In this document: piece by piece, positions 2,713-29,485 of the stretch | How the letters are laid out: the number at the start of each line of letters is the position of its first letter | Position numbering within the stretch: position 1 is the first letter of the stretch | The notes under the pieces: model-generated | Database searches by the model: none | What the model was told of the DNA's origin: nothing | The model's input: the letters and a program-made list of their open reading frames with translations, nothing else | Origin: Acidobacteriota bacterium | GTDB lineage: Bacteria; Acidobacteriota; Terriglobia; Acidiferrales; UBA7541 | Assembly (NCBI GenBank): GCA_003223255.1 | Contig: QHYJ01000274.1 | Location: 1 to 37,654 of the forward strand | Direction: 5' to 3' | DNA: 37,654 nucleotides | Translations under genes and position numbers: made by a program

Positions 2713-4257
2713 CTAGTTGGATTGCGCGGCGAGCCAGATTTTTCGTCCCAAGACTTGAAGCACATCCAGGCGCAAGGCACGAAATATCGGCTTGGAATTA
2801 TTGCGCCACACGAAGAAGAGAGTGAGTGCGTATACAAAGCTGCCGGCCAGAGCAACGGCGAGGAGATCCGGCCAACTGTCCACCCGGAACAGGATTTGCA
2901 AGGCAAGGAACGTGGCGGCTGTGGGGAGAGACAAGAGGCACGGCTTTACACAACCGTGAAGCAAATAGCGACGCAGGGGCAGATTCAAAATCTTGCACAA
3001 GTGGCGTGGGACAAGGAACAGGCTAGTGAGAAGCAAGGTGGCGGCCATGACGCTGGCTAGCCCGGGAAGACCAGCAATTCTTAGTGCCGCTGCACCGAAC
3101 GCGGTAATCGAAATTCCCTCTCCTAGGCGGTACCAGAACAGCTGCTTGTGCCTTTCGATGCCGAAAAGCATGGATTGAACGCAGCACTGCGTGGCGGCGA
3201 CGCCGACGCCGAGGGTGAGAAAAGCCAGGAGACGGTACGCAATGGTGTATTGCGGGCCGACCCAAAGAGTGAGCAGTTCGCGGCCAAAGATAAAAAGGAA
3301 CGCGGCGAAAGGGGCAAGTACGAGGAATGCGCTCTGGACGCTCATCTGAATGAGTTCGCGAAGCTTGGCAAAGTCGTTGCGCGCTTCCAGCTGGCTGGAG
3401 AGGGGATTCATGATTTCAGTCATGGTGCCAATGCCGTCGGTTGGGAAGGAGAGAATCTTCATGGGCAGGGCGAAGACGGTCACGGCGATAGGGGAAAGGA
3501 TGCGGGCGATCAAGATGGGGTAAACATAAGTGCGCATCCTCTCGGCGATGCCCACGCCCACACTGATGGAGCCGTAGCGAAACATATTTCGCAACACCGC
3601 CATGCGAATCCACTTGGGGTGAAGGGTAAAGCCCGGATGTGCGCGGAGAGCGAGAGGCACCTGGATGCAGTAGGCGAGCAGTTGAGAAAGAATGGTGGTG
3701 GCGCCTACGGCGAACAGGCCGCCACCCGCGTGCAAGACGTAAATGATTGCGGCAACGCGAAGGGCCAGGCAGGTGACAGTGGTGAGATAGACCTGGTCGA
3801 AACGGCCGGCAGCTTCCAAAGAACTGACGAAGACCAGCAGCGGCAGAGTGAGGCCCTGGACGAGGCCGGCAAGGAGGAAAAGAGATCGAAACGGCCCGAG
3901 GACGTCACGGTGAATGGAGAAGAAGTGGGAAATAGGATTGACCGAAAGATGGGTGGCGAGAACGATCAAGAAGCAGGCAGCGAGGTAATAGTAGAAGGCT
4001 GAGGCAACCACCTCGTTGACGCGGTCCGGTTCGTTGAGTTCCTTGTGGCGTGAGACATAGCGAATGATGGCGGAGCGGACGCCGGCATCCAAGATGCCGT
4101 AGTAGCCCACAAGATTCGTGGTGAGGATCCAGACGCCAAAGGCTTCATCACCTAGGCGGTGAAGGACGTAGGGTGTCAGGAAGATCCCGACCGAAGCATT
4201 GGCGATGACCGCAACCCAACTCGTCGTGACTGCTCTCAGAATGAGAGAGAGGCGCAT
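2713..4257 (-). CDS. Polysaccharide flippase, Wzx-like (MOP superfamily)
   Basis: This 514-residue, very hydrophobic protein has about 12-14 predicted membrane segments. Its N-terminus (GIFLTPYVLHRLGDEAFGVW, then GYYGILDAGVRSAIIRYVSR) is typical of Polysacc_synt / oligosaccharide flippases of the MOP superfamily. It should move undecaprenyl-diphosphate-linked repeat units across the inner membrane for polymerisation by the Wzy-like protein encoded at 15182-16555. The start at ATG 4257 has GAGGA about 5 nt upstream. It is the last gene of the minus-strand run and is followed by the terminator. The substrate cannot be told from sequence. Confidence 0.9.
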   Translation of the reverse strand: MRLSLILRAVTTSWVAVIANASVGIFLTPYVLHRLGDEAFGVWILTTNLVGYYGILDAGVRSAIIRYVSRHKELNEPDRVNEVVASAFYYYLAACFLIVLATHLSVNPISHFFSIHRDVLGPFRSLFLLAGLVQGLTLPLLVFVSSLEAAGRFDQVYLTTVTCLALRVAAIIYVLHAGGGLFAVGATTILSQLLAYCIQVPLALRAHPGFTLHPKWIRMAVLRNMFRYGSISVGVGIAERMRTYVYPILIARILSPIAVTVFALPMKILSFPTDGIGTMTEIMNPLSSQLEARNDFAKLRELIQMSVQSAFLVLAPFAAFLFIFGRELLTLWVGPQYTIAYRLLAFLTLGVGVAATQCCVQSMLFGIERHKQLFWYRLGEGISITAFGAAALRIAGLPGLASVMAATLLLTSLFLVPRHLCKILNLPLRRYLLHGCVKPCLLSLPTAATFLALQILFRVDSWPDLLAVALAGSFVYALTLFFVWRNNSKPIFRALRLDVLQVLGRKIWLAAQSN

Positions 4258-6311: not shown

Positions 6312-7535
6312 CTAGCCGCCTTGCAGGCGCATCCACCATTCGCCTTCCAATCGCGTAAGGAACGCATCACCCTGTTGAACGGCTTCGCGCAGATCTGCTC
6401 GCTTGGAATGCAGGAGCATGCGGGGGCCAGTGAAGCTAAACAGGCAACGTTCTTCAGAAAAAGCGGTGGTGAATTCGGGATCCATGCGTCCGGAGACTGC
6501 CGATGATCCCGACCGCCAGGCATGAAAAAAGAGTTGATCGAGAACGCGACGAATAGAATTTTTAGTGGCTACGATCTGCAAAACCTGGCTGATACCCTCT
6601 GGATTAACGTAATACATGTACCAGCCTTCGATTTGCCCGCAATCATTGCGAACTAATGAGTTGCGCAGCTTGCCGTGATGTTTCTTCTGGCTCGCCTGTT
6701 CCAGAAGCCAGCGCAAGGAGCGTTCGTCGTAATCCGGGCACAAGGACTTTGTTGCGGCGAATTTTGGCAATTGCTCGAGCAGGATTTCCCGGGTGAAATT
6801 CTCCTCGGGAGGCTGCTCCGTCTGATGGAATGGGCTGCTGCGTTGCCGCGCCGCGAAAAAATCTATGATGGCGGACACTGGGCCGACCGCGAATTGCAAG
6901 GGGGAAAAGAGTCTGCGTTCTTTCCAGCGCTCGAGAAAATACTGCGAGGGCCGCAAGAGGCGTGTCCAGTGGACGCTATAAGGAAAAGCCGTCATCCCGC
7001 CCAGGCCTTCCCAGATTCTGCGGCTTGCTTCGTTGGCTCCGTCGGTGAAAGACAGATCTTGGGGACCCGCAAAGAAGGCGCTCTGGAGCTCGACAGCCGC
7101 CAGACGATTTCTGACGGAAGGATCTACCATGAACTGGCTGGAGACGGCCGTGCGAATCGGCCGGCCGTTCATGCGCATTCGCCTCGGTATCACGCCATAG
7201 AAACCGCAAATCTTTCCGGCATCTTCACGATAAACGAGCGAAGGAAGATCCTCGTCGCACCAAGGATTCTCAAAGAAAAGGTTGCGGAAATGGGTCTGAA
7301 GCTCCGCCGCAGAAAAGGAATTTTCGGGAAATACCTTCCGGTGCAAATCCACGACTTGGGGAATATCGTCGGGCGTAAACGGGCGGATTCTTTTTGGATG
7401 AGCATAGGTATTTTGCGCGCAGCCCGCCTTGGATAGCGCTGCTGCATTCTTGGAAGTACTGCAAATCGGCGGGATGAACCCCGAAGCTAAAGGCCTTGAC
7501 GCGCTCCCGCTCACTTGGTTGATAAGCTTGCGCAA
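6312..7535 (-). CDS. GNAT-family N-acyltransferase
   Basis: The 407-residue protein has an N-terminal GNAT domain: IRPFTPDDIPQVVDLHRKVF, then a central strand region with ICGFYGVIPRRMRM and SSQFMVDPSVRNRLAAVELQ (the acyl-CoA or acyl-donor-binding part), then FTDGANEASRRIWEGLGG. The C-terminal ~200 residues resemble a second, degenerate GNAT-like half, as in FemAB-like and double-GNAT proteins. The start is TTG 7535 with GGAG 8 nt upstream. It lies 50 nt after the carrier protein gene, so the acyl donor may be a carrier-protein thioester rather than acetyl-CoA; that is inference. Confidence 0.75.
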   Translation of the reverse strand: MRKLINQVSGSASRPLASGFIPPICSTSKNAAALSKAGCAQNTYAHPKRIRPFTPDDIPQVVDLHRKVFPENSFSAAELQTHFRNLFFENPWCDEDLPSLVYREDAGKICGFYGVIPRRMRMNGRPIRTAVSSQFMVDPSVRNRLAAVELQSAFFAGPQDLSFTDGANEASRRIWEGLGGMTAFPYSVHWTRLLRPSQYFLERWKERRLFSPLQFAVGPVSAIIDFFAARQRSSPFHQTEQPPEENFTREILLEQLPKFAATKSLCPDYDERSLRWLLEQASQKKHHGKLRNSLVRNDCGQIEGWYMYYVNPEGISQVLQIVATKNSIRRVLDQLFFHAWRSGSSAVSGRMDPEFTTAFSEERCLFSFTGPRMLLHSKRADLREAVQQGDAFLTRLEGEWWMRLQGG

Positions 7536-7585: not shown

Positions 7586-7849
7586 TTAGTGGCCATTCCG
7601 CAGGGCCAGATGGCATAAACTCTTCACAACAGTGAATTCTTCCGGGGCAACGTCGATCAAATCGAGTTTCTCTTGCGTGTGATTTTCGATGAAAAGAATA
7701 AGGTCGACAAAGGCGAACGAGTCCAAGAGGCCGCTTTCGAGCAAATTCGTGCTCTCGGAGATCTCCGTGTGGCTTCTGCCCTTGAGCCCATTCTCTTTGA
7801 CCCAACCGACCACCAAATCGATGAGTTCTTTTTCTGCGACGGATTTCAT
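7586..7849 (-). CDS. Acyl/peptidyl carrier protein
   Basis: The 87-residue protein is of normal carrier-protein size. The motif LLESGLLDSFAFVDLILFIE (residues ~36-55) contains the phosphopantetheine attachment serine, S44, in the D-S context. The start ATG overlaps the stop of the adenylation gene (ATGA), so the two are translationally coupled and almost certainly partners. It resembles stand-alone carriers such as DltC and those of exosortase-A EPS loci. It should hold an aminoacyl or acyl group as a thioester for modification and transfer. Confidence 0.92.
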   Translation of the reverse strand: MKSVAEKELIDLVVGWVKENGLKGRSHTEISESTNLLESGLLDSFAFVDLILFIENHTQEKLDLIDVAPEEFTVVKSLCHLALRNGH

Positions 7850-9453
7850 GTTTGAAGCCCTGCGAGCAGGCTTGAGAGTTTTGCACGATCGATTTTCTGA
7901 TTCAGGTTCAAGGGCAACTGGTCGATCAAATAGATCTTTTTTGGGACCATGTAATCGGGCAAGACATTGCCGCAGCTTGTCAAAACGCGATCCGGATCGA
8001 ACGACTTAACGCCGGAGACGAACGCGACGACACCGTCGGCACTGCCATCATGAACCGGCCAGGGAACCGAAACCACCTGCTCGGTTCCGCAGGCGTGACG
8101 CAATACCGCCTCAATCTCCTGCAACTCCACGCGGTAGCCCCGGATTTTGACCTGTTGATCGATCCGACCCAGATAACAGAGATTGCCGCCCGCGACTTGC
8201 TTTACCAAATCACCAGTCCGGTACCAAACCCGTTCGCCTCCAGTGGGTAGACGCACGAACTGCTTCTGAGTTTTCGCGGGATCGCTCCAGTAACCGGAGG
8301 CGACTTGTGATCCGGAGAGACAGAGTTCGCCAACTTCTCCGATCGGGACGCTCTCTCTTTCTGCGCCTGTTACGCGGAAATGTTGCCCTTGGAAAACGCA
8401 GCCGATCGGGACGATACCGTTCACGCACTCCGCTGGAGATCTCTCAGTATTCCAGCGGTAGTGGGCGATGGCGATGGTGGCTTCCGTCGGGCCGTAGAGG
8501 TTTTCGACGATGGAGTTTGGAGCGGCTTCCTGCCAGGAATGGGCATAGGCCGCCGGAAGAGGTTCGCCACAAAATAAACTGCAACGCAGCGAGGGAAAGC
8601 AGCCGGGAGAGAGCAGCCGCAGTTTGGCCAGCAGGCCCGCTATGGAAGGGACAGAAAACCACATCGTAAGCTGGTGATCGCGGATGAATTTGGCCGGTGC
8701 CATGACGGACTTCTCGGGAACGCAATACAAAGAAGCGCCGCGTTCCCAGCTGACGAACATGTCGTGTGCGCTCAGGTCGAAAGTGAGGTCAAATTGCTGA
8801 GAGAAGCGGTCGTGTTCATTCACGTTGTAGCGTTGGCAGATGTAGTCAACATACGACCGCACATTTCCCTGGCTGATGGGGACGCCCTTGGGCATGCCCG
8901 TGCTTCCGGACGTGAACAAAAGATAAGCAGGCGAAGCGGGAGTGGAGGTTTTTTCAGAAGAGAAGTCTTCTCCGCTGGGTAATTGCTCGGCAAAAAGGAA
9001 TCGATGACGCCGATTCTTCGATTGCAGATCCTCTGACGCGGCAACTTCCGGCAGAATGACTGTCAAAGAGCGATCGGCTGTTTGGAGTAGCGCGGACAAC
9101 TGAGGAAGAGACTCTTTGCCGACAATGAGAGTGTCGCACCCGGAAAGAGCAAGCATGCGACAGGTGCGTTCGAGGGGAAATCTCGGATTCAGCGGCACGT
9201 ATCCCTTGCCGGCCGCAAGAGAGCCCAGGATTCCAATGTAGGCCGTGTGGCTCCGGTGGGCCCAAACAGCAGCGAGCGGGTAGGGCTTCTGCTCATTTTG
9301 TTGAATTGCCCAGGCGATTTGGCGGACCCTTCGATGCAGGCTCGAATAGGTCAGAGACTCACCGTCAACAACAAGAGCCGTTCGGTCAGGGAAGCACTCA
9401 GCCGATTCGAGGAATCCGCTGATAAGGTTTCGGGATGAATTTTGTGCTGTCAT
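7846..9453 (-). CDS. AMP-forming adenylation enzyme, DltA-like amino-acid:carrier-protein ligase
   Basis: This is a complete 535-residue stand-alone A-domain. Motifs: A3 LLFTSGSTGMPKG (178-190), A4 FDLSAHDMF (~225-233, Asp present at the amino-binding position), FCGEPLP (C295), A5 YGPTEAT (320-326), A7 YRTGD (411-415), A8 GRIDQQVKIRGYRVELQEIE (429-448), and A10 with the catalytic lysine K520 (NQKID). The FCGE...NLYGPTEATIA pattern and the length are closest to D-alanine:carrier-protein ligase DltA, where the Cys of FCGE lines the D-Ala pocket. A small amino acid is therefore a plausible substrate, but I cannot assign it. Exosortase-A-associated acyl-CoA ligases are an alternative. No condensation domain, DltB or DltD is nearby. 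Confidence 0.88.
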   Translation of the reverse strand: MTAQNSSRNLISGFLESAECFPDRTALVVDGESLTYSSLHRRVRQIAWAIQQNEQKPYPLAAVWAHRSHTAYIGILGSLAAGKGYVPLNPRFPLERTCRMLALSGCDTLIVGKESLPQLSALLQTADRSLTVILPEVAASEDLQSKNRRHRFLFAEQLPSGEDFSSEKTSTPASPAYLLFTSGSTGMPKGVPISQGNVRSYVDYICQRYNVNEHDRFSQQFDLTFDLSAHDMFVSWERGASLYCVPEKSVMAPAKFIRDHQLTMWFSVPSIAGLLAKLRLLSPGCFPSLRCSLFCGEPLPAAYAHSWQEAAPNSIVENLYGPTEATIAIAHYRWNTERSPAECVNGIVPIGCVFQGQHFRVTGAERESVPIGEVGELCLSGSQVASGYWSDPAKTQKQFVRLPTGGERVWYRTGDLVKQVAGGNLCYLGRIDQQVKIRGYRVELQEIEAVLRHACGTEQVVSVPWPVHDGSADGVVAFVSGVKSFDPDRVLTSCGNVLPDYMVPKKIYLIDQLPLNLNQKIDRAKLSSLLAGLQT

Positions 9454-9516
9454 CGATGTTGTTCGGGCACGCGCCGGTTACATTGCGGCATCGGAGAATC
9501 GACTGCGTGGGCAGGT

Positions 9517-10623
9517 TCAAGCGAATAAGCCGATTTGTTCCAGCGCTCGTTCGAACGCGGCGCCAGCGTGCTGTAACTCTTCTTCCTCGGGCGGTATGTC
9601 CAGAATGAACGTGCGATAACCCAAACAGAGGTAGCGGGATAATTCATGGGCGACTGAGTCATAGCCTCCCACCAAGTAAGGGCAGAAAGTCTTGTATTGC
9701 TCAAAGGGCCTGAGCCAGTAAGTGCTCCGCATGGCTCGCGTTTTGTTTGCCGTCTCCGAGAGTTGCTTGTGCCATAGGGAATCGGAAACTCTCATCGCCA
9801 ATTGGTGAGTGAGTTCGCCTTTGCGGTCTTCAGGGAATCGTTCCTCGGCGACCTCCCAAGCTTCATCTTCGTTTTCACGCGCAAGGATTCCCACACGAAT
9901 CCCTGATTTTAGAATATTGCTTGCAGGTTCAGCCTCGCACTCGCTTGGCGGGCGGGGATACTTTACGGCGGTCGCGCCGAGTTTTTTTGCCGCATCGAGG
10001 CCGGCCTCCGACGATCCCGAGACAAATGTCTCAGGGAAAAGCTCGGGAGGGAGGGGAGGAGTCATTCGCAGTTGATCGATGTTGTAAAACTCGCCGTGAA
10101 AGGTGACGGGCGCCGAGGTAGACAAGAGCTGATTGATAATGGTCGCGTATTCAATCAGGCGTGTATATCGCTTGTCATGGGGCGTTGGGTCATTTAACGC
10201 AACCAAATCGTTCTTGAAGCCGCCGGCGACCATGTTCAAATAGAGCCGCCGATGATAAAGGAAACCGAAAGAAGCCACCATTTTTGCCACCGAATAGGGG
10301 TGCATGTAGACGGGCTGAATAGCGACGAGTGGACTTAATTTCTGAGTGCTCTCGACGATAATCTGAGACACGAGCCAAGGGTCCAAGAGCGAGTTATCTG
10401 TATAAACCAAAATTCCCGTGCAACCGCAGCGCTCGCTCCAGCGAGCTACTTTCCGGACGTGGCGGGCATACGATTGTTTGTCGAAACCAAGGGATTGCGG
10501 GCAGGTGGAGAAAAGCTCAACGGGCCTCTCCGTATTAATGCGAGCAACGAGGTTAGCGCGGGACACGGGCCTGCGAGTTTCCGATGGAAGCGCCGATCTC
10601 AAGCTTTCCTTGCTCGAAAGCAT
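9517..10623 (-). CDS. LLM-class flavin-dependent monooxygenase (luciferase/SsuD-like)
   Basis: The 368-residue protein has a bacterial-luciferase-like TIM-barrel pattern: VELFSTCPQS at strand 1, CTGILVYTDNSLLDPWLVSQ, VAIQPVYMHPYSVAKMVAS, LYLNMVAGGFKNDLVALND, RYTRLIEYATIINQLL, FYNIDQLRMTPPLP and FVSGSSEAGLDAAKKLGA. These match FMN/FMNH2-dependent alkanesulfonate-monooxygenase-type enzymes, some of which act on carrier-bound substrates in natural-product pathways. The start ATG 10623 is chosen because a perfect AAGGAGG lies 7 nt upstream; the longer GTG 10644 start would place that site inside the gene. The gene start overlaps the 3' end of the deacetylase gene by 71 nt. The gene lies 63 nt upstream of the adenylation gene, suggesting it oxidises the carrier-tethered amino acid (inference). 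Confidence 0.85.
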   Translation of the reverse strand: MLSSKESLRSALPSETRRPVSRANLVARINTERPVELFSTCPQSLGFDKQSYARHVRKVARWSERCGCTGILVYTDNSLLDPWLVSQIIVESTQKLSPLVAIQPVYMHPYSVAKMVASFGFLYHRRLYLNMVAGGFKNDLVALNDPTPHDKRYTRLIEYATIINQLLSTSAPVTFHGEFYNIDQLRMTPPLPPELFPETFVSGSSEAGLDAAKKLGATAVKYPRPPSECEAEPASNILKSGIRVGILARENEDEAWEVAEERFPEDRKGELTHQLAMRVSDSLWHKQLSETANKTRAMRSTYWLRPFEQYKTFCPYLVGGYDSVAHELSRYLCLGYRTFILDIPPEEEELQHAGAAFERALEQIGLFA

Positions 10624-12319
10624 ACCCTTGCCTCCTTTGAGCACTGTCTGAGTGTTTAAGAGCTTGGGTCACCTGGGGATGCAGGTGCTCTTTCGCGGCA
10701 TCTACGAAGTCAAATACAGATTGCAATTCCAACTCAAGCTCCCACTGGCTGCTATAGAATTTCTTTCGATGCAGATGACTCTGAAGTTCGCCGGCTTTGG
10801 GGAAAGACTCTCCACCGAAGGAAGAAACGAAATGCCGGTACGTGGATGCCGCCATGTCCATTGCTTCCGAGGACATGTTTTTAGGTTTTCCAAAGGGGAA
10901 GGCGAAAAACTCCACCGGCTTTTTGAGTTGAGCTTCCAGATCATCCCGCGAACCAACAATCTCCGGCCTCAATTTTTCCGGATCAACAAAACCGCAATCG
11001 AAGTGCGTACGAGTGTGACTACCAAATTCCGCTCCACGGGCGTTCCAATATTGAATTTGATCCCACGTCAACGGAAGAAAGCCAGTCGTGCCGGTCACCA
11101 GGTCATGGTCAAATTCCCGGTGAGTTTCTACTGGGGCAGTGGTAATAAACAAAGTAGGTGAAATTCCCGCTTCATGAGCCACCGCGCGAAGGTTTAAGAA
11201 ATTATCCCCGTAGCCGTCGTCGAAGGTGAGCACGACGGTTGGGACGCGTACTTGACCGGAACGCAAGAGTTCGACCGCCTCGGAAAGACTCGCAATCCGG
11301 TAATGCTTCCGCAGAAAAAGGACTTGCCGCCAAAAGATTTCCGTAGGCACGCCCATTCGGTGCGGGCGGTCCGAGACCAAGTGATGGGCAAGGATAAGCA
11401 CTGGATATCGACCGCTCATGCGGCGACGCCAATTGCGCCCTATGACACTTGGGGAAAAAAGCAGCAACGTATCAAGACACAGTTTCCAGGTAGACCGACA
11501 ACGCTTTCTCTTGGGTTCCGTCTGAGAGGTGTGGCGCTCAATGCCTTTCCACTGTGTAACGGAGGGTGTGAGAATTTTATTGGCCCATTGTAATACCGCG
11601 GCTGATGCACTTGCCGGGTCGCCACACAGCAGACTCACACTTGTTTGCAACAGCAAATCATCCGCAATCAAATCGCTTTTCAAAGTAAACCCCAGGAGGC
11701 CGTCGAGAGGCTGCCAAGGGAGAACCAGAGAAAAAATTTTGCAGGGTATTCCTGTGCCGGCCGCCAAGTGTTCGATACTAAGCAAAGTGCCCCTGGTGCC
11801 GCTCCCCCGCTCGCTGCTAAGGCGGTAGTTGCAAGTGCGCACGCATCCGCTTGATGCATTGGCCCATAATTCTGGCATTGCAGAAAAGTCTCCCAGCAAA
11901 ATGGCAAGATCGACATCTCCGTGGCAGATGCGGGTGGCGGCGCCTGCTTCTTCCCCTTCGCCGGTGACGGCAAGGGGCCATCCCGTTTTAGAGCACTCTC
12001 GAATCAGGCTTTCGACCGCGAATCGCGAATTGTTCAATGGGGCGGGGCAGCCACGTACAAGCCAGAGGAGGCGATCAGCAATCTTGTCGAACGCTGAAGC
12101 AATGAGGAGTCGCACTTTACATCCAAACCCAGGAACATCCGGAATTTTCCGCGTTATGCCCGCAGCAATCAGCTGCTGGACCCAAGGAATTGAGCGTGTC
12201 GACCGCTGGACGATGCCACAAATTTCAGTACCAGGAACTTCTCTGAGGATTCTGTTTGCGAAATTCCAGGTGCGCGAGGGCCGAACGTTGGACACCATTA
12301 ATATGCGAAAGGTCTTCAT
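10553..12319 (-). CDS. Two-domain protein: N-terminal formyltransferase-like region (uncertain) plus NodB polysaccharide deacetylase
   Basis: The protein is 588 residues from ATG 12319 (MKTFRILMVSNVRPS). The C-terminal half is a carbohydrate esterase 4 (NodB) domain: HHLVSD, TFDDGYGDN (catalytic Asp pair), GSHTRTH (metal His), FFAFPFGKP. It should deacetylate N-acetylated sugars of the polymer or repeat unit. The N-terminal ~260 residues look like a Rossmann formyltransferase fold (ILMVSNVRPS; DVDLAILLGDF; GCVRTCNYRLSSERGSG; DDLLLQTSVSLL), but the NxH...D catalytic signature of PurN/Fmt enzymes is not visible, so this part may be inactive or something else. No signal peptide is seen at the N-terminus. 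The C-terminal tail overlaps the monooxygenase gene by 71 nt. Confidence 0.8.
   Translation of the reverse strand: MKTFRILMVSNVRPSRTWNFANRILREVPGTEICGIVQRSTRSIPWVQQLIAAGITRKIPDVPGFGCKVRLLIASAFDKIADRLLWLVRGCPAPLNNSRFAVESLIRECSKTGWPLAVTGEGEEAGAATRICHGDVDLAILLGDFSAMPELWANASSGCVRTCNYRLSSERGSGTRGTLLSIEHLAAGTGIPCKIFSLVLPWQPLDGLLGFTLKSDLIADDLLLQTSVSLLCGDPASASAAVLQWANKILTPSVTQWKGIERHTSQTEPKRKRCRSTWKLCLDTLLLFSPSVIGRNWRRRMSGRYPVLILAHHLVSDRPHRMGVPTEIFWRQVLFLRKHYRIASLSEAVELLRSGQVRVPTVVLTFDDGYGDNFLNLRAVAHEAGISPTLFITTAPVETHREFDHDLVTGTTGFLPLTWDQIQYWNARGAEFGSHTRTHFDCGFVDPEKLRPEIVGSRDDLEAQLKKPVEFFAFPFGKPKNMSSEAMDMAASTYRHFVSSFGGESFPKAGELQSHLHRKKFYSSQWELELELQSVFDFVDAAKEHLHPQVTQALKHSDSAQRRQGYAFEQGKLEIGASIGNSQARVPR
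10631..10637 (-). promoter_or_regulatory. Strong Shine-Dalgarno (AAGGAGG) inside the deacetylase gene
   Basis: AAGGAGG on the minus strand, 7 nt before ATG 10623, decides the start of the flavin monooxygenase. It lies within the last codons of the upstream deacetylase gene, so the overlap is functional rather than an annotation artefact. Confidence 0.75.
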
Positions 12320-12392
12320 GACGGGCAAAAGGCTTGTGGTCGATACAAAATGCTATGCGGCAAAAGCAATGCGAGTTTAAGAGTCAGAAATT

Positions 12393-13787
12393 CTAGTAAG
12401 CATTTTTGTTGCGGTATTTTGGAAAAAGCGTAAGGAAAATGATTCTCAAATCGAAAGTAAAACTCCAGTTTTGCAGGTAGAACAAGTCGTGTTCCACGCG
12501 CTTTCGGATGGATGTGTCGCCGCGCCAGCCATTGACCTGGGCCCAACCGGTGATGCCTACCTTTAGGCGGTGGCGATTGTTGTACCTGGCCACCTCTTGC
12601 AGGAATTTTTCAACAAAGCGAACGAGCTCCGGACGTGGACCCACAATGCTCATATCACCTTTCAATACGTTGAAAAACTGGGGCAGCTCGTCGAGACTCA
12701 TCTTTCGAAGAAGAATTCCCAAACGAGTTCGGCGCGGATCGTTTGGCGTCGTGTGCCGCCGGTCGCTCTCGCGGGAATCGGCGACTCTCATAGTTCGGAA
12801 CTTGTACATGCGAAAGACCTTTCCGTTCAGTCCCACACGGTCTTGAACAAACAGGGCCGGGCCGGGGGATGTCAGGCGCACGGCTAGGGCGATTGCCGCC
12901 ATCAGAGGAGCCGTCAGCAGGATGGCGAAGGTGGAAAATACTATGTCGAACGCGCGCTTCAACAGGGAATACGCAATGGAATCCGTGGGAGTCGCGGTGA
13001 GATCGAAAATCTGCAGACGCCCAAACTGGAATAATCTCTCACGAACCAGCGTGTGATCACCCAAATCAACGATGGCGCGGACCGGCAGACAAAACCGCTC
13101 GAGCATTTTCATAAAGTACGGGATGTCGGAAAAGCGTGTGGGTGGGAGGGCGAGAATGACTTCATCGATGTCTTCATTCCGGCTAATTCGTTCTGTTACC
13201 TGCTGCAAGGGATAGACCGGCGCGTCATCCACGGCAACAGCCTGTTCCGGAAGACTTACATAGCCTATGACCCGGCAGAAAGAAAGTGGTCCGCGGATTA
13301 ATCGGCGCGTTGCTCGCCGAGCAAAGCGATCCGACCCAACAACGAGAATGCGGTTCGGTTTCCTGAGCCCGGAATGACTGTGGGCCAGGAGCCGGAACAC
13401 GGCGCGCACCGTCAGCGTCATTAGAAACAAAGAGACGCCGCTGAACGCAAAAAACATGCGCGACAGGTTCATGTAGCGATGAAAGAAGAAGAGTAGTCCG
13501 ATGTCCAAAGAATAAGTAAGGACGCAGGCTGGGAAAGCAGCTCGAATTCCCGTGCGTTCCTGAAATAGTGTCTGGACGGCCGCAATTCCAAAATGCTCGG
13601 CAATGATGGCCCAGAGGAAAGTCGTAAGCAAAACCAGGTCGAAGTAAAGGTAAGGGTTGATCCCGGAAATGACATCAGCATGACCGGTTAAGATGCGCGC
13701 ATATCCGGCAACGGAAAAAGAGAGGAAGGGCAAGGAGTAGATCACGATGCGGAGGTAGAAATGATAAAAGTTGACAAACCTTCTCAT
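12393..13787 (-). CDS. Undecaprenyl-phosphate sugar-1-phosphate transferase (initiating enzyme, WcaJ-type)
   Basis: The 464-residue protein has four N-terminal membrane segments (residues ~10-125), then a Rossmann-like CoA-binding-type region (RILVVGSDRFARRATRRL...), then the bacterial sugar transferase domain: LLKRAFDIVFSTFAILLTAP (hydrophobic re-entrant helix), PALFVQDRVGLNGKVFRMYK, FRTM, MSLDELPQFFNVLKGDMSIV with the catalytic D-E pair, and GPRPE. The family transfers hexose-1-P to undecaprenyl phosphate and so starts the repeat unit. It is close to the EpsB/TIGR03013-like enzymes of exosortase-A EPS loci. I see no clear ribosome binding site at ATG 13787. The sugar specificity is unknown. 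Confidence 0.93.
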   Translation of the reverse strand: MRRFVNFYHFYLRIVIYSLPFLSFSVAGYARILTGHADVISGINPYLYFDLVLLTTFLWAIIAEHFGIAAVQTLFQERTGIRAAFPACVLTYSLDIGLLFFFHRYMNLSRMFFAFSGVSLFLMTLTVRAVFRLLAHSHSGLRKPNRILVVGSDRFARRATRRLIRGPLSFCRVIGYVSLPEQAVAVDDAPVYPLQQVTERISRNEDIDEVILALPPTRFSDIPYFMKMLERFCLPVRAIVDLGDHTLVRERLFQFGRLQIFDLTATPTDSIAYSLLKRAFDIVFSTFAILLTAPLMAAIALAVRLTSPGPALFVQDRVGLNGKVFRMYKFRTMRVADSRESDRRHTTPNDPRRTRLGILLRKMSLDELPQFFNVLKGDMSIVGPRPELVRFVEKFLQEVARYNNRHRLKVGITGWAQVNGWRGDTSIRKRVEHDLFYLQNWSFTFDLRIIFLTLFPKYRNKNAY

Positions 13788-17844: not shown

Positions 17845-19806
17845 TTAAGAAAGCAGAGGCGTTTCGGAGAGCGCGGCCACGTCTGATTTGTAAAAAGCGG
17901 GTTGCGCGTCGGTCGACGGGGCCAGTGCAACTCCACTGTCACGGTCAAGGAAGATTCGGCACCACAACTCAAAATTCAGGAGCCGCCAGCAAGCTTCGGT
18001 GGCGGATGAACTGCCTTGCCGATGCGCGTTCAACAGAGGTTGAACGTAGCTTGACTCGATGAGCCCTCGTTCCGCCATGCGCCCGTCCGTAAGAATCGCC
18101 TTGAGTTGTTCAAAAAGCTGATTCCTTAGCCACGGGCGAATCGGGGTGGGGAAGCCCTTCTTATTGCGTTGCAAGACTTCAGGCGGCAGTTGACGGGCCA
18201 TGGCCTCGCGCAGCAGGTACTTGCCGGAAGAAAAACGCAGCTTATATCGAGCGGGAAGGCTTGCCGCAAACTCCACCAGCTTGTGATCCAGGAAGGGAAC
18301 GCGGCTTTCGATGGACGCGGCCATGCTCATCTGGTCTTGTTTCATGAGCAGTTCGAGGAGATAAGTTTTTATGTCCATATACAGCAGCTGATTCAGGGCG
18401 TTCCCATTCAGCCCGTCTGTAGGGAAGTACTGCATGGAATTCGCGTAGGCATTGATGTCGCGAAGCTCGTTGTTAAGCGCGCGTGTGAAAAGTCGCGGCT
18501 GCTCGTGCTGAGGAAACGCGGCATAGAAGTTATCGAAATAGATTTGTTCAAAATTATCTGGATGATAGAGGAAAGAATGACGCAACTTGCGCGTCGCCCA
18601 ATCCGGACCAAGCCTCGAGGAAAGCGCTTTACGTACCGCCTGCTGGAGAAATCGCGGAACAACCTTTCTGTAAAGGGGGGCTCCGCGCAGGTTCCATAGT
18701 GCGACGCGGTACTTCAAATAACCTGCGAAAAGCTCATCTCCTCCTTCGCCCGTCAGCACGACCTTTACTTTTTCGCCCGCCAGGCGCGATACAAAAAATA
18801 GAGCGACACTGGAGGGCCAGACGAGCGGCTCATCCTCGTGCCAAATCAACTGCGGCAAACTGCTCAAGAAATCACCGGGACCGAGGATTACTTCGTTATA
18901 TTCGGCGCCGATATGTTTCGCGACGGTGCGGGCATAAGGCAATTCGCTGTATTGATTCTCGGCGTACCCCACGGAAAAAGCTTGAATCGGCTCTTTCGTG
19001 AGAGAGGCCATCACCGCGGCGATGGAGCTCGAATCAAGCCCTCCGCTCAGAAAAACACCTAGCGGAACATCGCCCATGAGATGGCCGCGGACCGTTTCTG
19101 TAAAAAGTTCGCGGAACTGCGAGACGTAGTCCGCTTCGCTGAACGATTCTTGCGGCAACGAGTTATCCAAGTCCCAGTAGCGAGTGATCTGTGGCTGGAC
19201 ATTCTGCGTGGCAAGGTCGAGGCAAAGATGATGCCCTGGCAGAAGCTTGTACACATTCTTGTAGAGAGTTTCGTGTGCCGAGAGATAACCAAACGTGAAG
19301 AACTCGGGAAGGGCACTCCGATTGAGCCGCGCTTTGAAGTCCCGCAATTCGAAGAGCGCCTTGATTTCCGAGACAAAGGCGAATCGATCGCCTGCAATTG
19401 CATAGTAGAAGGGTTTGATCCCTAAGCGGTCTCTGGCGCAGAAGAGCCGGTTGTATCGCGCATCCCAGATTGCAAAGGCAAACATGCCGCGGAGGTGGTG
19501 AACGCAATCTTCGCCATATTCCTCATAGCGGTGACCACGTTTTTCCAAATCATGACGAAGGTCGGCGTGATTATAGATCTCGCCGTTAAACACAATCCAA
19601 ACGTTCCGCTCTTCGTTGCACATCGGCTGATGGCCACCGAGTATATCCACAATGCTCAGCCTTCGGAACGCGAGCGCCACGGAACCGGAAGAGAACGTTC
19701 CTTGCTCGTCAGGCCCGCGATGGCGCAGCACGCGCGACATGGCTTCCAGCTCCTCTGCGGGGGGCCTGTGCCCCCGCATATCGAGAATTCCGCAGATTCC
19801 ACACAT
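17845..19806 (-). CDS. Asparagine-synthase-like amidotransferase 1, with a deletion in the glutaminase domain
   Basis: The protein is 653 residues. N-terminal class-II glutaminase: MCGICGIL (nucleophile Cys after Met removal), RHRGPDEQG, RRLSIVD, FNGEIYN. C-terminal synthetase: LSGGLDSSS (ATP pyrophosphatase P-loop), LTGEGGDELFAGY, DQMSMAASIESRVPFLDHKL. Compared with its paralogue at 27421-29391, the segment between GHR and YEEYG is missing 13 residues (junction near 19527). This removes the SDTE motif whose Asp (Asp98 in E. coli AsnB) helps bind glutamine. The enzyme may be ammonia-dependent or inactive as a glutaminase. In EPS loci such proteins are thought to amidate sugar uronates or are of unknown role (exosortase-A type); plain asparagine synthesis is possible but less likely here. 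Confidence 0.9.
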   Translation of the reverse strand: MCGICGILDMRGHRPPAEELEAMSRVLRHRGPDEQGTFSSGSVALAFRRLSIVDILGGHQPMCNEERNVWIVFNGEIYNHADLRHDLEKRGHRYEEYGEDCVHHLRGMFAFAIWDARYNRLFCARDRLGIKPFYYAIAGDRFAFVSEIKALFELRDFKARLNRSALPEFFTFGYLSAHETLYKNVYKLLPGHHLCLDLATQNVQPQITRYWDLDNSLPQESFSEADYVSQFRELFTETVRGHLMGDVPLGVFLSGGLDSSSIAAVMASLTKEPIQAFSVGYAENQYSELPYARTVAKHIGAEYNEVILGPGDFLSSLPQLIWHEDEPLVWPSSVALFFVSRLAGEKVKVVLTGEGGDELFAGYLKYRVALWNLRGAPLYRKVVPRFLQQAVRKALSSRLGPDWATRKLRHSFLYHPDNFEQIYFDNFYAAFPQHEQPRLFTRALNNELRDINAYANSMQYFPTDGLNGNALNQLLYMDIKTYLLELLMKQDQMSMAASIESRVPFLDHKLVEFAASLPARYKLRFSSGKYLLREAMARQLPPEVLQRNKKGFPTPIRPWLRNQLFEQLKAILTDGRMAERGLIESSYVQPLLNAHRQGSSSATEACWRLLNFELWCRIFLDRDSGVALAPSTDAQPAFYKSDVAALSETPLLS

Positions 19807-27420: not shown

Positions 27421-29391
27421 CTACACCCGCGCGAGTTCCGGTATGCTCTGGCCGACCGCTGCATCACGAAGCGATCGTCCCGGTGTCCGTTGGAACGTCG
27501 GTTTGACGCCAGTTTGCTCTTCCATGAAATTGCGATGCCAAAGCTCGAGGATTAGCAATTGCCAAAGCTCCCAGGAGCGATCCCGAATCCCTTTCCGGTG
27601 TTCCAACAACCTTTGCGTTACACCATTCTTGTCAAAGTAGCCTCGTTGGAGCGTCCTTGGCTCCAATAGAATGTCCAGCAGTGCCGGGGCAGGATTCTGA
27701 CGGAACCAATGCAGAAGCGGCATCGCAAAACCTTGTTTGTGTCGGTACAGCACTTGCTTGGGAACGTTCAGACGTTCTGCCAGCTTCTTCAGGACATACT
27801 TGAGTTCTCCAAAGCGCAACTTCCAACGCGGTGACAACATCGCTGCCCACTCGGCTAAGGGATGATCCAGAAACGGCGCTCGTACCTCCAAGGAATTTGC
27901 CATGCTCATGCGGTCGACCTTGGTCAAGATGTCTCCGGGGAGATACGTTTTTGCGTCGAGATACTGCACTTCGCTCAGAGCGTCAGTAGCGGGACCGTTT
28001 TCTAGCAATTGCCGGAACCCTTCATAGGGCGAGGGTTGCCTGTTGGCCCACGCGAGGAAATCCTTGGAGAAAATATCTGTTTCCCGCCAACTGGTGGGCA
28101 ACGTCGATATCTCATCCAAATAGCGTTCCCGCGGGGGCAGCGAAAGGTTGTAAACAAGTCTGCGCCCGTGCCAATGCATCGGAATGATCGGGTGTACGTG
28201 CTCTCGATACCATCGTCCCAGGGCGAAGGAAAACGGCCGAATTCTTCTGCGTCCCAGATAAGACCCGTACCGATCGTACCCCGCAAAAAGTTCATCTCCT
28301 CCATCCCCCGTCAGGGCCACCGTGACGTGCTGTCGAGCCAAGCGGCACACATGGTATGTCGGGACGATGGATGAGTCCGCGAACGGTTCTTCGAGAATGC
28401 CTGTGAGCAGGTGTACGGTTTGCTCGATATTGGGCTCCACGTAGAGTTCGTGATGCTCCGTGTCAAATTGCCGCGCGACGGCGCGGGCGTGATCACTTTC
28501 ATTAAAGTCCTCATGGGGGAAGCCAATCGAAAACGTCTTGACCGGGTGAGAACTGAAGCGCGCCATGAGCGCCACGACGATGGAGGAATCCACTCCTCCG
28601 CTCAGCAGCGTTCCCAGCGGGACATCGCTGATCAGCCGCACCCGAACCGCTTCAGCCAACCGATGCTCGAGCTGTTCCAGGCATTCTTGCTCGGATTGCG
28701 GTTCATAGGTTCCATAAGCTGGCAAATCCCAATACTTCTGAACGCGGACCCGCCCATCAGAAAATTCGAGGAGGTGTCCGGGCGGTAGCTTCTTTATGCT
28801 CTTGAAGCAGGTATATGGATCGGCGATGTAGCCAAAGTGCAAAAAGCCCAACAGGCTGTGGTGAGCGACTTCCGCAAGTCTTGGCGCCGCAGCTAGAATC
28901 GCCTTGATTTCCGATCCAAATAGAAACCGTCCGCCATCCATCCCGTAGTGCAGCGGCTTCTTTCCGAAGCGATCTCGCGCGAGTAGCAGCTTCTCTCCGC
29001 GTTGATCCCAGACTGCCAGCGCAAACATTCCCCTTAGTTTCTTCACGCATTCGGCCCCATATTCCTCGTACAGATGGACGATGATTTCCGTGTCCGAGTT
29101 GGTGTAAAAGCGGTGGCCCCGAGCTTCCAACTTCGGGCGCAGTTCCGGGAAGTTATAGATTTCGCCGTTGAAGACGACCCAAATACGGCGATCCTCATTG
29201 TGAATCGGCTGATGGCCCGTTGACAGGTCAATGATGCTCAGGCGCCTCATGCCTAGCCCGGCGCGGCCGTGCACGTAAATTCCCTCATCGTCCGGGCCGC
29301 GATGCACAATGGTCTGGCACATCTGCTGGACCTCCGCCGCTTGGGCTGAGTATCCAGGTTCAACGCCAACGATGCCCGCTATGCCGCACAT
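27421..29391 (-). CDS. Asparagine-synthase-like amidotransferase 2 (exosortase-A-type)
   Basis: The 656-residue protein is intact. ATG 29391 is chosen so that Cys2 (MCGIAGIV) becomes the N-terminal nucleophile. Glutaminase motifs HRGPDDEG, RRLSIIDL, FNGEIYN and TNSDTEIIVHLYEEYG are all present, unlike paralogue 1. Synthetase motifs: LLSGGVDSS, TGDGGDELFAGYDRYG, VDRMSMANSLEVRAPFLDH, KQGFAMPL. Such enzymes are standard members of exosortase-A EPS loci. Biochemically, AsnB-family homologues amidate carboxyl groups, including sugar uronates in some O-antigen clusters. With the dehydrogenase 1.4 kb downstream, uronate amidation is a reasonable hypothesis; ordinary asparagine synthesis cannot be excluded. 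Confidence 0.93.
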   Translation of the reverse strand: MCGIAGIVGVEPGYSAQAAEVQQMCQTIVHRGPDDEGIYVHGRAGLGMRRLSIIDLSTGHQPIHNEDRRIWVVFNGEIYNFPELRPKLEARGHRFYTNSDTEIIVHLYEEYGAECVKKLRGMFALAVWDQRGEKLLLARDRFGKKPLHYGMDGGRFLFGSEIKAILAAAPRLAEVAHHSLLGFLHFGYIADPYTCFKSIKKLPPGHLLEFSDGRVRVQKYWDLPAYGTYEPQSEQECLEQLEHRLAEAVRVRLISDVPLGTLLSGGVDSSIVVALMARFSSHPVKTFSIGFPHEDFNESDHARAVARQFDTEHHELYVEPNIEQTVHLLTGILEEPFADSSIVPTYHVCRLARQHVTVALTGDGGDELFAGYDRYGSYLGRRRIRPFSFALGRWYREHVHPIIPMHWHGRRLVYNLSLPPRERYLDEISTLPTSWRETDIFSKDFLAWANRQPSPYEGFRQLLENGPATDALSEVQYLDAKTYLPGDILTKVDRMSMANSLEVRAPFLDHPLAEWAAMLSPRWKLRFGELKYVLKKLAERLNVPKQVLYRHKQGFAMPLLHWFRQNPAPALLDILLEPRTLQRGYFDKNGVTQRLLEHRKGIRDRSWELWQLLILELWHRNFMEEQTGVKPTFQRTPGRSLRDAAVGQSIPELARV

Positions 29392-29485
29392 AATTCCCGC
29401 CACTCGAGAGTCACTTCGACCAACGCACGGAGAATCACGAAGTGCGGAACTCCCGCAGATCGTCTGCGTGCCCGCTGCCTAGGAG

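Follow-up and report, generated by a model that had tools for sequence, protein, structure and literature searches.

Several described systems each share part of their logic with the gene block examined here, in which a luciferase-like flavin-dependent monooxygenase (LLM), a stand-alone adenylation enzyme, a carrier protein, and a tandem-GNAT acyltransferase are encoded in a polysaccharide operon of an Acidobacteriota bacterium. The block lies on contig QHYJ01000274.1 (assembly GCA_003223255.1), whose 37,654 nucleotides, one contig of a 6.66 Mb draft genome, are referred to throughout as the window. The butirosin side-chain pathway (BtrI carrier, BtrO LLM, BtrH transferase) is likened to it by activity, not by sequence, through LLM oxidation of a carrier-bound amino-acid derivative. 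It differs in that an ATP-grasp ligase loads the carrier and in its aminoglycoside product, BtrH putting the side chain on an aminoglycoside amine. Excerpts of two papers describe BtrO as an LLM-type enzyme that oxidizes the carrier-bound derivative (PMC11354265, PMC2922099). Trans-acting LLM alpha-hydroxylases of the MupA type offer a further parallel, MupA being described in an excerpt as dependent on reduced flavin mononucleotide (FMNH2) and as acting on a carrier-held acyl group (PMC10952193), although the substrate is a polyketide in a type I polyketide synthase rather than an amino acid in a stand-alone cassette. The AlmEF(G) system likewise uses a stand-alone adenylation enzyme and a carrier; an excerpt reports that AlmE activates glycine and mis-activates D-alanine and that AlmG transfers glycine to lipid A (PMC12930378), whereas here a tandem GNAT adjoins the carrier in a polysaccharide operon. 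DltABCD also combines a DltA-like ligase with a DltC-like carrier, but the present locus has no DltB on the contig, no DltD match in the genome, and a ligase that falls far below DltA cut-offs. In the Vio-type N-acylamino-sugar pathways of O-antigens, a surface glycan likewise receives an amino acid on one of its amino sugars. To our knowledge, an LLM is part of neither the Alm system nor the Vio-type sets.

A preliminary description of positions 7586 to 10623 of the window had proposed that an amino acid is loaded on the carrier, oxidized while tethered, and transferred by the GNAT to an amino sugar exposed by a NodB deacetylase. Here, we compare the block across genomes and propose, tentatively and at somewhat less than an even chance, that it is a portable cassette for aminoacyl oxidation and transfer.

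The LLM and Adenylation Genes Are Linked across Phyla

With the LLM alone as bait, a close homolog (at least 54% identity, E ≤1e-120) was found in 12 of 61 relatives and a homolog at E ≤1e-40 in 12 of 297 genomes drawn from the phylum, the window genome being included in both counts. A scan of 84,980 species genomes returned 231 LLM-related stretches, the best 80 of which were kept; together with 23 regions from 22 genomes and the window these gave 104 sources, and removal of 11 with identical LLM stretches left 93 loci, many of them cut by short contigs. Apart from the six initial profiles, gene families were assigned from Pfam or NCBIfam matches of one or two representatives per cluster.

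An adenylation gene was directly downstream of the LLM, on the same strand, in 81 of the 93 loci, rising to 75 of 78 after loci with less than 2.7 kb downstream and the five lowest-scoring LLMs were dropped, and a carrier was found in 71 of 93. The co-occurrence that the preliminary description had anticipated was therefore upheld for these three genes, which cannot be called not conserved together, but less so for the GNAT (38 of 93). Among the 12 loci without a downstream adenylation gene, five, including two whose adenylation gene is upstream, had less than 1.6 kb of downstream sequence left, another four were in the set of five with the lowest LLM scores, and the other three (L078, L083, and L087) were genuine exceptions; loci with the adenylation gene on the opposite side of the LLM (L081 and L096) were counted as lacking it. 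L083 and L087 have a 580-amino acid protein after the LLM instead, and that of L087, the one scanned, matches GINT1_N (glucosamine inositolphosphorylceramide transferase). Long open frames in GC-rich loci had raised the suspicion of LLM-adenylation fusions, of which none was found in the 93 loci.

The link exceeded what chance would give. In a control, a single tblastn search with the window's adenylation enzyme was run over loci with approximately 1.5 kb of flanking sequence per side; it matched 19 of 24 subfamily loci vs. one of 19 loci of distant LLM paralogs (L024). In the reverse search of the 61 relatives, all nine adenylation enzymes at least 50% identical to the window's adjoined the LLM, whereas the six at 40 to 49% did not.

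The LLM-adenylation pair occurs in at least 11 named phyla (Acidobacteriota, Gemmatimonadota, Pseudomonadota, Nitrospirota, Planctomycetota, Myxococcota, Rokuibacteriota, Deinococcota, Verrucomicrobiota, Latescibacterota, and Actinomycetota), taken from record titles of mostly metagenome bins, such that individual phyla may be misassigned. The LLM tree, the backbone of which is weakly supported, mixes phyla and requires 13 state changes for a carbamoyltransferase, 11 for a RimL-type GNAT, nine for a formyltransferase, and seven for a methyltransferase; hence, these associations have probably arisen anew several times and not by a single inheritance. Adenylation type required six changes on the same tree, of which well-supported branches force only one, and repeated replacement of the adenylation gene beside the LLM is no more than likely.

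The Adenylation Enzyme Is Predicted to Load a Small Amino Acid

The window's adenylation enzyme scored above the cut-off of the amino acid adenylation profile TIGR01733 (336.2 bits against 317.4), below that of the DltA equivalog profile (266.7 against 559.85), and far below that of TIGR03098, the exosortase-A acyl-CoA ligase (212.5 against 592.35), and is probably, as first described, an amino-acid rather than a fatty-acid ligase. Binding pockets were read from the 76 of 81 adjacent adenylation enzymes that were long enough, the window's included, at positions named after GrsA, with the amine-binding Asp equivalent to GrsA 235. This Asp is kept in all 76. The window's pocket reads DLHSLCLIAK, and the pattern DL.S.C.[IV]A is common to all 76 enzymes, DL.SLCLIA to 61, and DLFSLCLIAK to 45. 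Nearly the same pocket occurs in a second adenylation lineage that comprises 54 of the 76 enzymes and is approximately 32% identical to the window's.

Comparison by eye in PDB alignments found the pocket equal to that of the glycine enzyme AlmE (4oxi) at eight of nine positions and to those of DltA (3e7w) and 6akd at five of nine, and it is predicted to be an AlmEF-like, glycine-type pocket. The top PDB domain overall was the second adenylation domain of linear gramicidin synthase subunit A, presumably a glycine module. LLM-free adenylation enzymes of congeners that are nearer overall (39 to 40% identity; L174 to L177) carry other pockets despite this closer identity, and the pocket therefore appears to track the cassette and not overall similarity, with L172 and L173 as exceptions. 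Glycine is the most likely predicted substrate, with alanine as second choice, and the pocket makes it very probable that some small amino acid is loaded on the carrier.

The carrier and adenylation genes overlap by ATGA, and the genes and their order downstream of the LLM proved to be as originally stated. Although the window's carrier scored 18.3 bits against Pfam, below the cut-off of 20.8, that of a relative passes (L124, 39.8 bits). The Asp-Ser phosphopantetheine site was invariant in all 25 aligned carriers, and the window genome has three matches to PF01648 (phosphopantetheinyl transferase) that could serve the carrier.

The LLM-free adenylation-carrier sets L174 to L177 have the pocket DIFT.[AS]LVV in three cases and DISSFSLVV in L177, a neighbor of 550 to 640 amino acids belonging to no Pfam family (four scanned), and a methyltransferase in both sets examined (L174 and L175). 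Their interpretation as Dlt operons was rejected: Pfam searches of six neighbors gave no MBOAT or DltD and methyltransferases in two, and the pockets differ.

The LLM Lacks the SsuD Catalytic Cys, His, and Tyr

Translation of the LLM may begin at a GTG (9517 to 10644) or at an ATG at 10623 with AGGAGG ahead. The PF00296 score, well above its cut-off of 27.9 bits, assigns the protein to the bacterial luciferase-like superfamily, and its closest solved structures are SsuD and MsuD. A Foldseek search with the modeled structure (predicted local distance difference test score, pLDDT, 79.9) gave MsuD 7k14 as the top match (E 6.5e-20), consistent with a TIM-barrel fold. SsuD has the catalytic residues Cys54, His228, and Tyr331, plus Arg226. 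The Cys, His, and Tyr columns hold Leu, Gly, and Pro in the window's LLM, and none of the 23 aligned LLMs has the SsuD residues there, while Arg226 is kept in all 23. Against the SsuD family profile the enzyme scored 110.8 bits (cut-off 518.2), which places it outside that family.

Eight of the 81 LLM-adenylation loci have a flavin reductase gene no more than 7 kb downstream, and seven of these have it within 3.5 kb, an arrangement that would suit an FMNH2-dependent two-component oxygenase. No flavin reductase was recognized in the window; two are encoded elsewhere in the same genome. LLM homologs on four plasmids (41.6 to 47.5% identity), those inspected among seven plasmid matches, have both AMP-binding or nonribosomal peptide synthetase (NRPS) genes and a carrier or phosphopantetheinyl transferase gene within 10 kb, and the plasmid records label this clade only as "LLM class flavin-dependent oxidoreductase". 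We place LLM action on the carrier-bound amino acid because that is the common factor of its genomic settings.

These plasmid loci (L190 to L193) are seemingly unrelated thiotemplate natural-product clusters with a P450, an acyl-CoA dehydrogenase, or a gene annotated as tryptophan 7-halogenase. Two of their ligases have the pocket DVFSLCTVAK in common.

A Tandem GNAT and Alternative Accessory Genes

The acyltransferase model (pLDDT 85.8) is consistent with two GNAT folds in one chain. Its full-length fold matches, scored by re-alignment of Foldseek's own matches, were N-myristoyltransferase 1iyl_A (Z 20.7, root mean square deviation 5.8, 314 residues aligned) and acetyltransferase 3n7z_C (Z 19.8, root mean square deviation 3.4, 284 aligned); we take the acetyltransferases among them to be Eis-like. 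The usual GNAT coenzyme-loop motif is R/QxxGxG/A. Across 28 aligned rows the Arg is invariant, the position of the first Gly being occupied by Leu in 18 and by Gly in two, and this altered loop would suit a carrier-bound donor. The 38 loci with the family comprise 28 close members, one truncated member, and nine distant Bradyrhizobium homologs recognized by profile alignment (94% probability). Outside LLM cassettes, matches were located in L178, which also has an AsnB gene and an adenylation-carrier pair whose pocket differs, and in L179 and L180, near polysaccharide-type genes.

Further enzymes are encoded in subsets of the 93 loci: a carbamoyltransferase in 28, a RimL-type GNAT in 26, a formyltransferase in 12, a flavin reductase in nine, and a methyltransferase in seven. 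The formyltransferase, RimL-type GNAT, and methyltransferase genes usually separate the adenylation gene from the carrier gene or directly follow the two; the window's block has none of these three, and a carbamoyltransferase follows. Among the 81 loci, formyltransferase never occurred together with RimL (3.7 loci expected; hypergeometric P 0.008) or with carbamoyltransferase (4.1 expected; P 0.004), relatedness being ignored in both tests. RimL coincided with carbamoyltransferase in five loci (8.6 expected) and with methyltransferase in one (2.2 expected), and two of the formyltransferase, RimL, and methyltransferase genes shared a locus just once. The simplest reading is that the formyl and RimL steps are alternative caps at one position.

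In L101, L107, and L112, a KASIII-family gene follows the cassette, accompanied in two of them by a 3-hydroxyacyl-CoA dehydrogenase-family gene, both called from one scanned representative per family. L107 and L112 also have a second adenylation-type ligase, as if the aminoacyl group were elongated.

The Polysaccharide Operon

Most of the window is a single minus-strand polysaccharide operon (Table 1) that encodes Wza-like, chain-length, and kinase proteins (named by eye from translations), an UpxY/RfaH-like antiterminator, two AsnB-type amidotransferases, glycosyltransferases, a Wzy-like protein, a WcaJ-like transferase, and NodB. The LLM, adenylation, carrier, and GNAT genes come after NodB, ahead of the carbamoyltransferase and a Wzx-like flippase; the GNAT and carbamoyltransferase, reported earlier as following the carrier, do so just outside positions 7586 to 10623.

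Table 1. Features of the cassette and neighboring operon genes in the window
Feature	Position	Strand	Evidence
LLM-class flavin-dependent monooxygenase, SsuD/MsuD fold, without the SsuD catalytic Cys/His/Tyr	9517..10623	-	PF00296 96.8 bits; 1m41 alignment; column counts; model pLDDT 79.9; Foldseek
Stand-alone amino-acid adenylation enzyme, pocket DLHSLCLIAK	7846..9453	-	TIGR01733 over cut-off; pocket from alignment; PDB alignments
Peptidyl/acyl carrier protein, ATGA-coupled to adenylation gene, Ser44 as phosphopantetheine site	7586..7849	-	
Tandem-GNAT acyltransferase; start codon uncertain, homologous part from ~7397 down	6312..7535	-	PF13527; alignment; model pLDDT 85.8; fold matches
TobZ/NodU-type O-carbamoyltransferase; open frame extends to 6523	4355..~6190	-	PF02543 and PF16861
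NodB polysaccharide deacetylase with ~300-amino acid N-terminal region of no known family; overlaps LLM start	10553..12328	-	PF01522 on residues 360-485
Initiating sugar phosphotransferase (WcaJ-like) of host polysaccharide operon	12393..13787	-	TIGR03025 390.1 bits, cut-off 295.55
Wzx-like flippase	2713..4257	-	Weak NCBIfam match, 36 bits

Scores of 204.6 bits for PF02543 and 228.6 bits for PF16861 assign the carbamoyltransferase to the TobZ/NodU O-carbamoyltransferases, and the WcaJ-like transferase scored 410.4 bits against TIGR03023, just below the cut-off of 410.75. The absence of a condensation domain, DltB, and DltD from the block was corroborated: the draft genome has a single PF00668 match and two MBOAT (DltB-type) matches, each on another contig and none on the window contig, which is thus not a condensing NRPS locus, and DltD had no match in the draft genome. 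Nor is the window an XrtA exopolysaccharide (EPS) locus, the single PF09721 exosortase match in the genome being on a different contig and none on the window's, while several further window genes resemble families of the XrtA set, all below cut-off.

The two AsnB-type amidotransferases (17845 to 19806 and 27421 to 29403, minus strand) resemble the XrtA-system amidotransferase family, below cut-off, on a contig without an exosortase match. Residues 1 to 305 of the NodB protein have no Pfam match; this N-terminal region of approximately 300 amino acids is common to three congeners, though partly missing in one (L044). The idea that it is a formyltransferase was rejected, there being no Pfam match and no profile match to the cassette formyltransferases, a weak test with only four sequences.

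Polysaccharide settings are frequent among other loci. Flanks of at least 7 kb on both sides are available for 47 loci, the window included; 25 of these have one or more of five polysaccharide-type markers and 18 have at least two, and adding two glycosyltransferase clusters brings the number with polysaccharide genes to 27. Bradyrhizobium accounts for eight of the remaining 20, where the scanned neighbors are transporter and metabolic genes. The EPS context first described accordingly stands for the window but only in part across the loci, and while polysaccharide decoration fits the window well, it may not be the sole use of the cassette. As a general role, exposure of the acceptor by a NodB deacetylase was not sustained: matches to NodB, many of which are weak, were recorded for 13 of the 93 loci, and apart from the window itself, three congeners were found to have its type of NodB gene.

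Discussion

In the pathway that we propose, the adenylation enzyme would activate a small amino acid, most likely glycine and possibly alanine, and load it on the ATGA-coupled carrier, a step strongly indicated by the pocket. The LLM, with FMNH2 from a flavin reductase, would then oxidize the carrier-tethered aminoacyl group. We infer tethered oxidation from genomic linkage and the BtrO and MupA precedents, and consider it somewhat more likely than not that oxidation takes place on the carrier. Many relatives encode one additional enzyme (formyltransferase, RimL-type GNAT, or methyltransferase) that may cap the group; the window's cassette is followed by a carbamoyltransferase. Finally, the tandem GNAT would transfer the carrier-bound acyl group onto an amine, which in the window, to judge from the operon, most likely belongs to a sugar of the polysaccharide precursor, although we give transfer to such a precursor an even chance.

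A number of observations weigh against this interpretation. No GNAT of the family was recognized in 55 of the 93 loci, nor in 24 of the 58 that have an adenylation gene and at least 6.5 kb downstream, and of 10 family members in relatives, five are in LLM cassettes and five elsewhere, two of the latter as fragments. None of the five polysaccharide markers was present in 22 of the 47 well-flanked loci. With respect to substrate, the pocket of the second lineage equals that of AlmE at seven of nine positions, and the central segment scores best against PDB 8k4r and 6akd, slightly over AlmE. Finally, adenylation-carrier pairs without an LLM in L172 and L173 (48 and 46% identity) have the pocket DLFSLCLIAK, and the loading module can therefore do without oxidation.

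These LLM-free pairs, in L173 with a weak match to GNAT in the next gene, together with the many loci among polysaccharide genes, favor plain aminoacylation of the Alm or Dlt kind, whereby glycine or alanine is transferred unoxidized and the LLM acts elsewhere, for example on a sugar nucleotide or lipid-linked sugar. We consider this unlikely, as the LLM is tied to the adenylation gene and to no particular sugar gene, the link persists in Bradyrhizobium where no polysaccharide gene was found, and distant LLM relatives occur in plasmid NRPS-like clusters. Those same plasmid homologs, in natural-product-like clusters, are open to another explanation, that the cassette makes a diffusible small molecule (a signal, siderophore-like compound, or similar) and its location in a polysaccharide operon is incidental. 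The eight Bradyrhizobium loci of 47, which lie near an oligopeptide-type ABC (ATP-binding cassette) transporter, and the loci that add KASIII and 3-hydroxyacyl-CoA dehydrogenase point the same way; yet the window and three congeners each carry these genes within a single operon that encodes WcaJ and NodB ahead of them, and markers or glycosyltransferases accompany 27 of 47 well-flanked loci, and we judge a diffusible product improbable. A third alternative, in which the ligase activates a fatty or hydroxy acid (the possible role of the exosortase-A-associated acyl-CoA ligase) and the LLM hydroxylates the lipid chain, draws on the TIGR03098 match and is highly improbable given how far that score is below its cut-off, the TIGR01733 result, and the universal amine-binding Asp.

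A more specific version of the oxidation-and-transfer cassette is a long shot: a widespread, horizontally moving module that makes N-oxidized glycine on the carrier (N-hydroxyglycyl) and plants it on surface polysaccharides, as a hydroxamate where a formyl- or acetyltransferase is present and otherwise free or carbamoylated. If this were true, the polymer would have built-in metal-chelating or reactive groups, and the formyltransferase or RimL would be the hydroxamate-forming step. No description of an LLM, adenylation, and polysaccharide gene set was found in open-licence PMC text, judged by titles and abstract openings, and the cassette would be an undescribed way of decorating cell-surface polysaccharides. 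Were the proposed pathway correct, thiotemplate oxidation, known from antibiotics, would extend to the decoration of cell-surface polymers in bacteria of soil and groundwater and in nitrifiers, and a clade of generically named LLM enzymes would gain a testable function. The cassette would also provide a genetic marker for nonsugar substituents that are easily missed by monomer analysis of exopolysaccharides.

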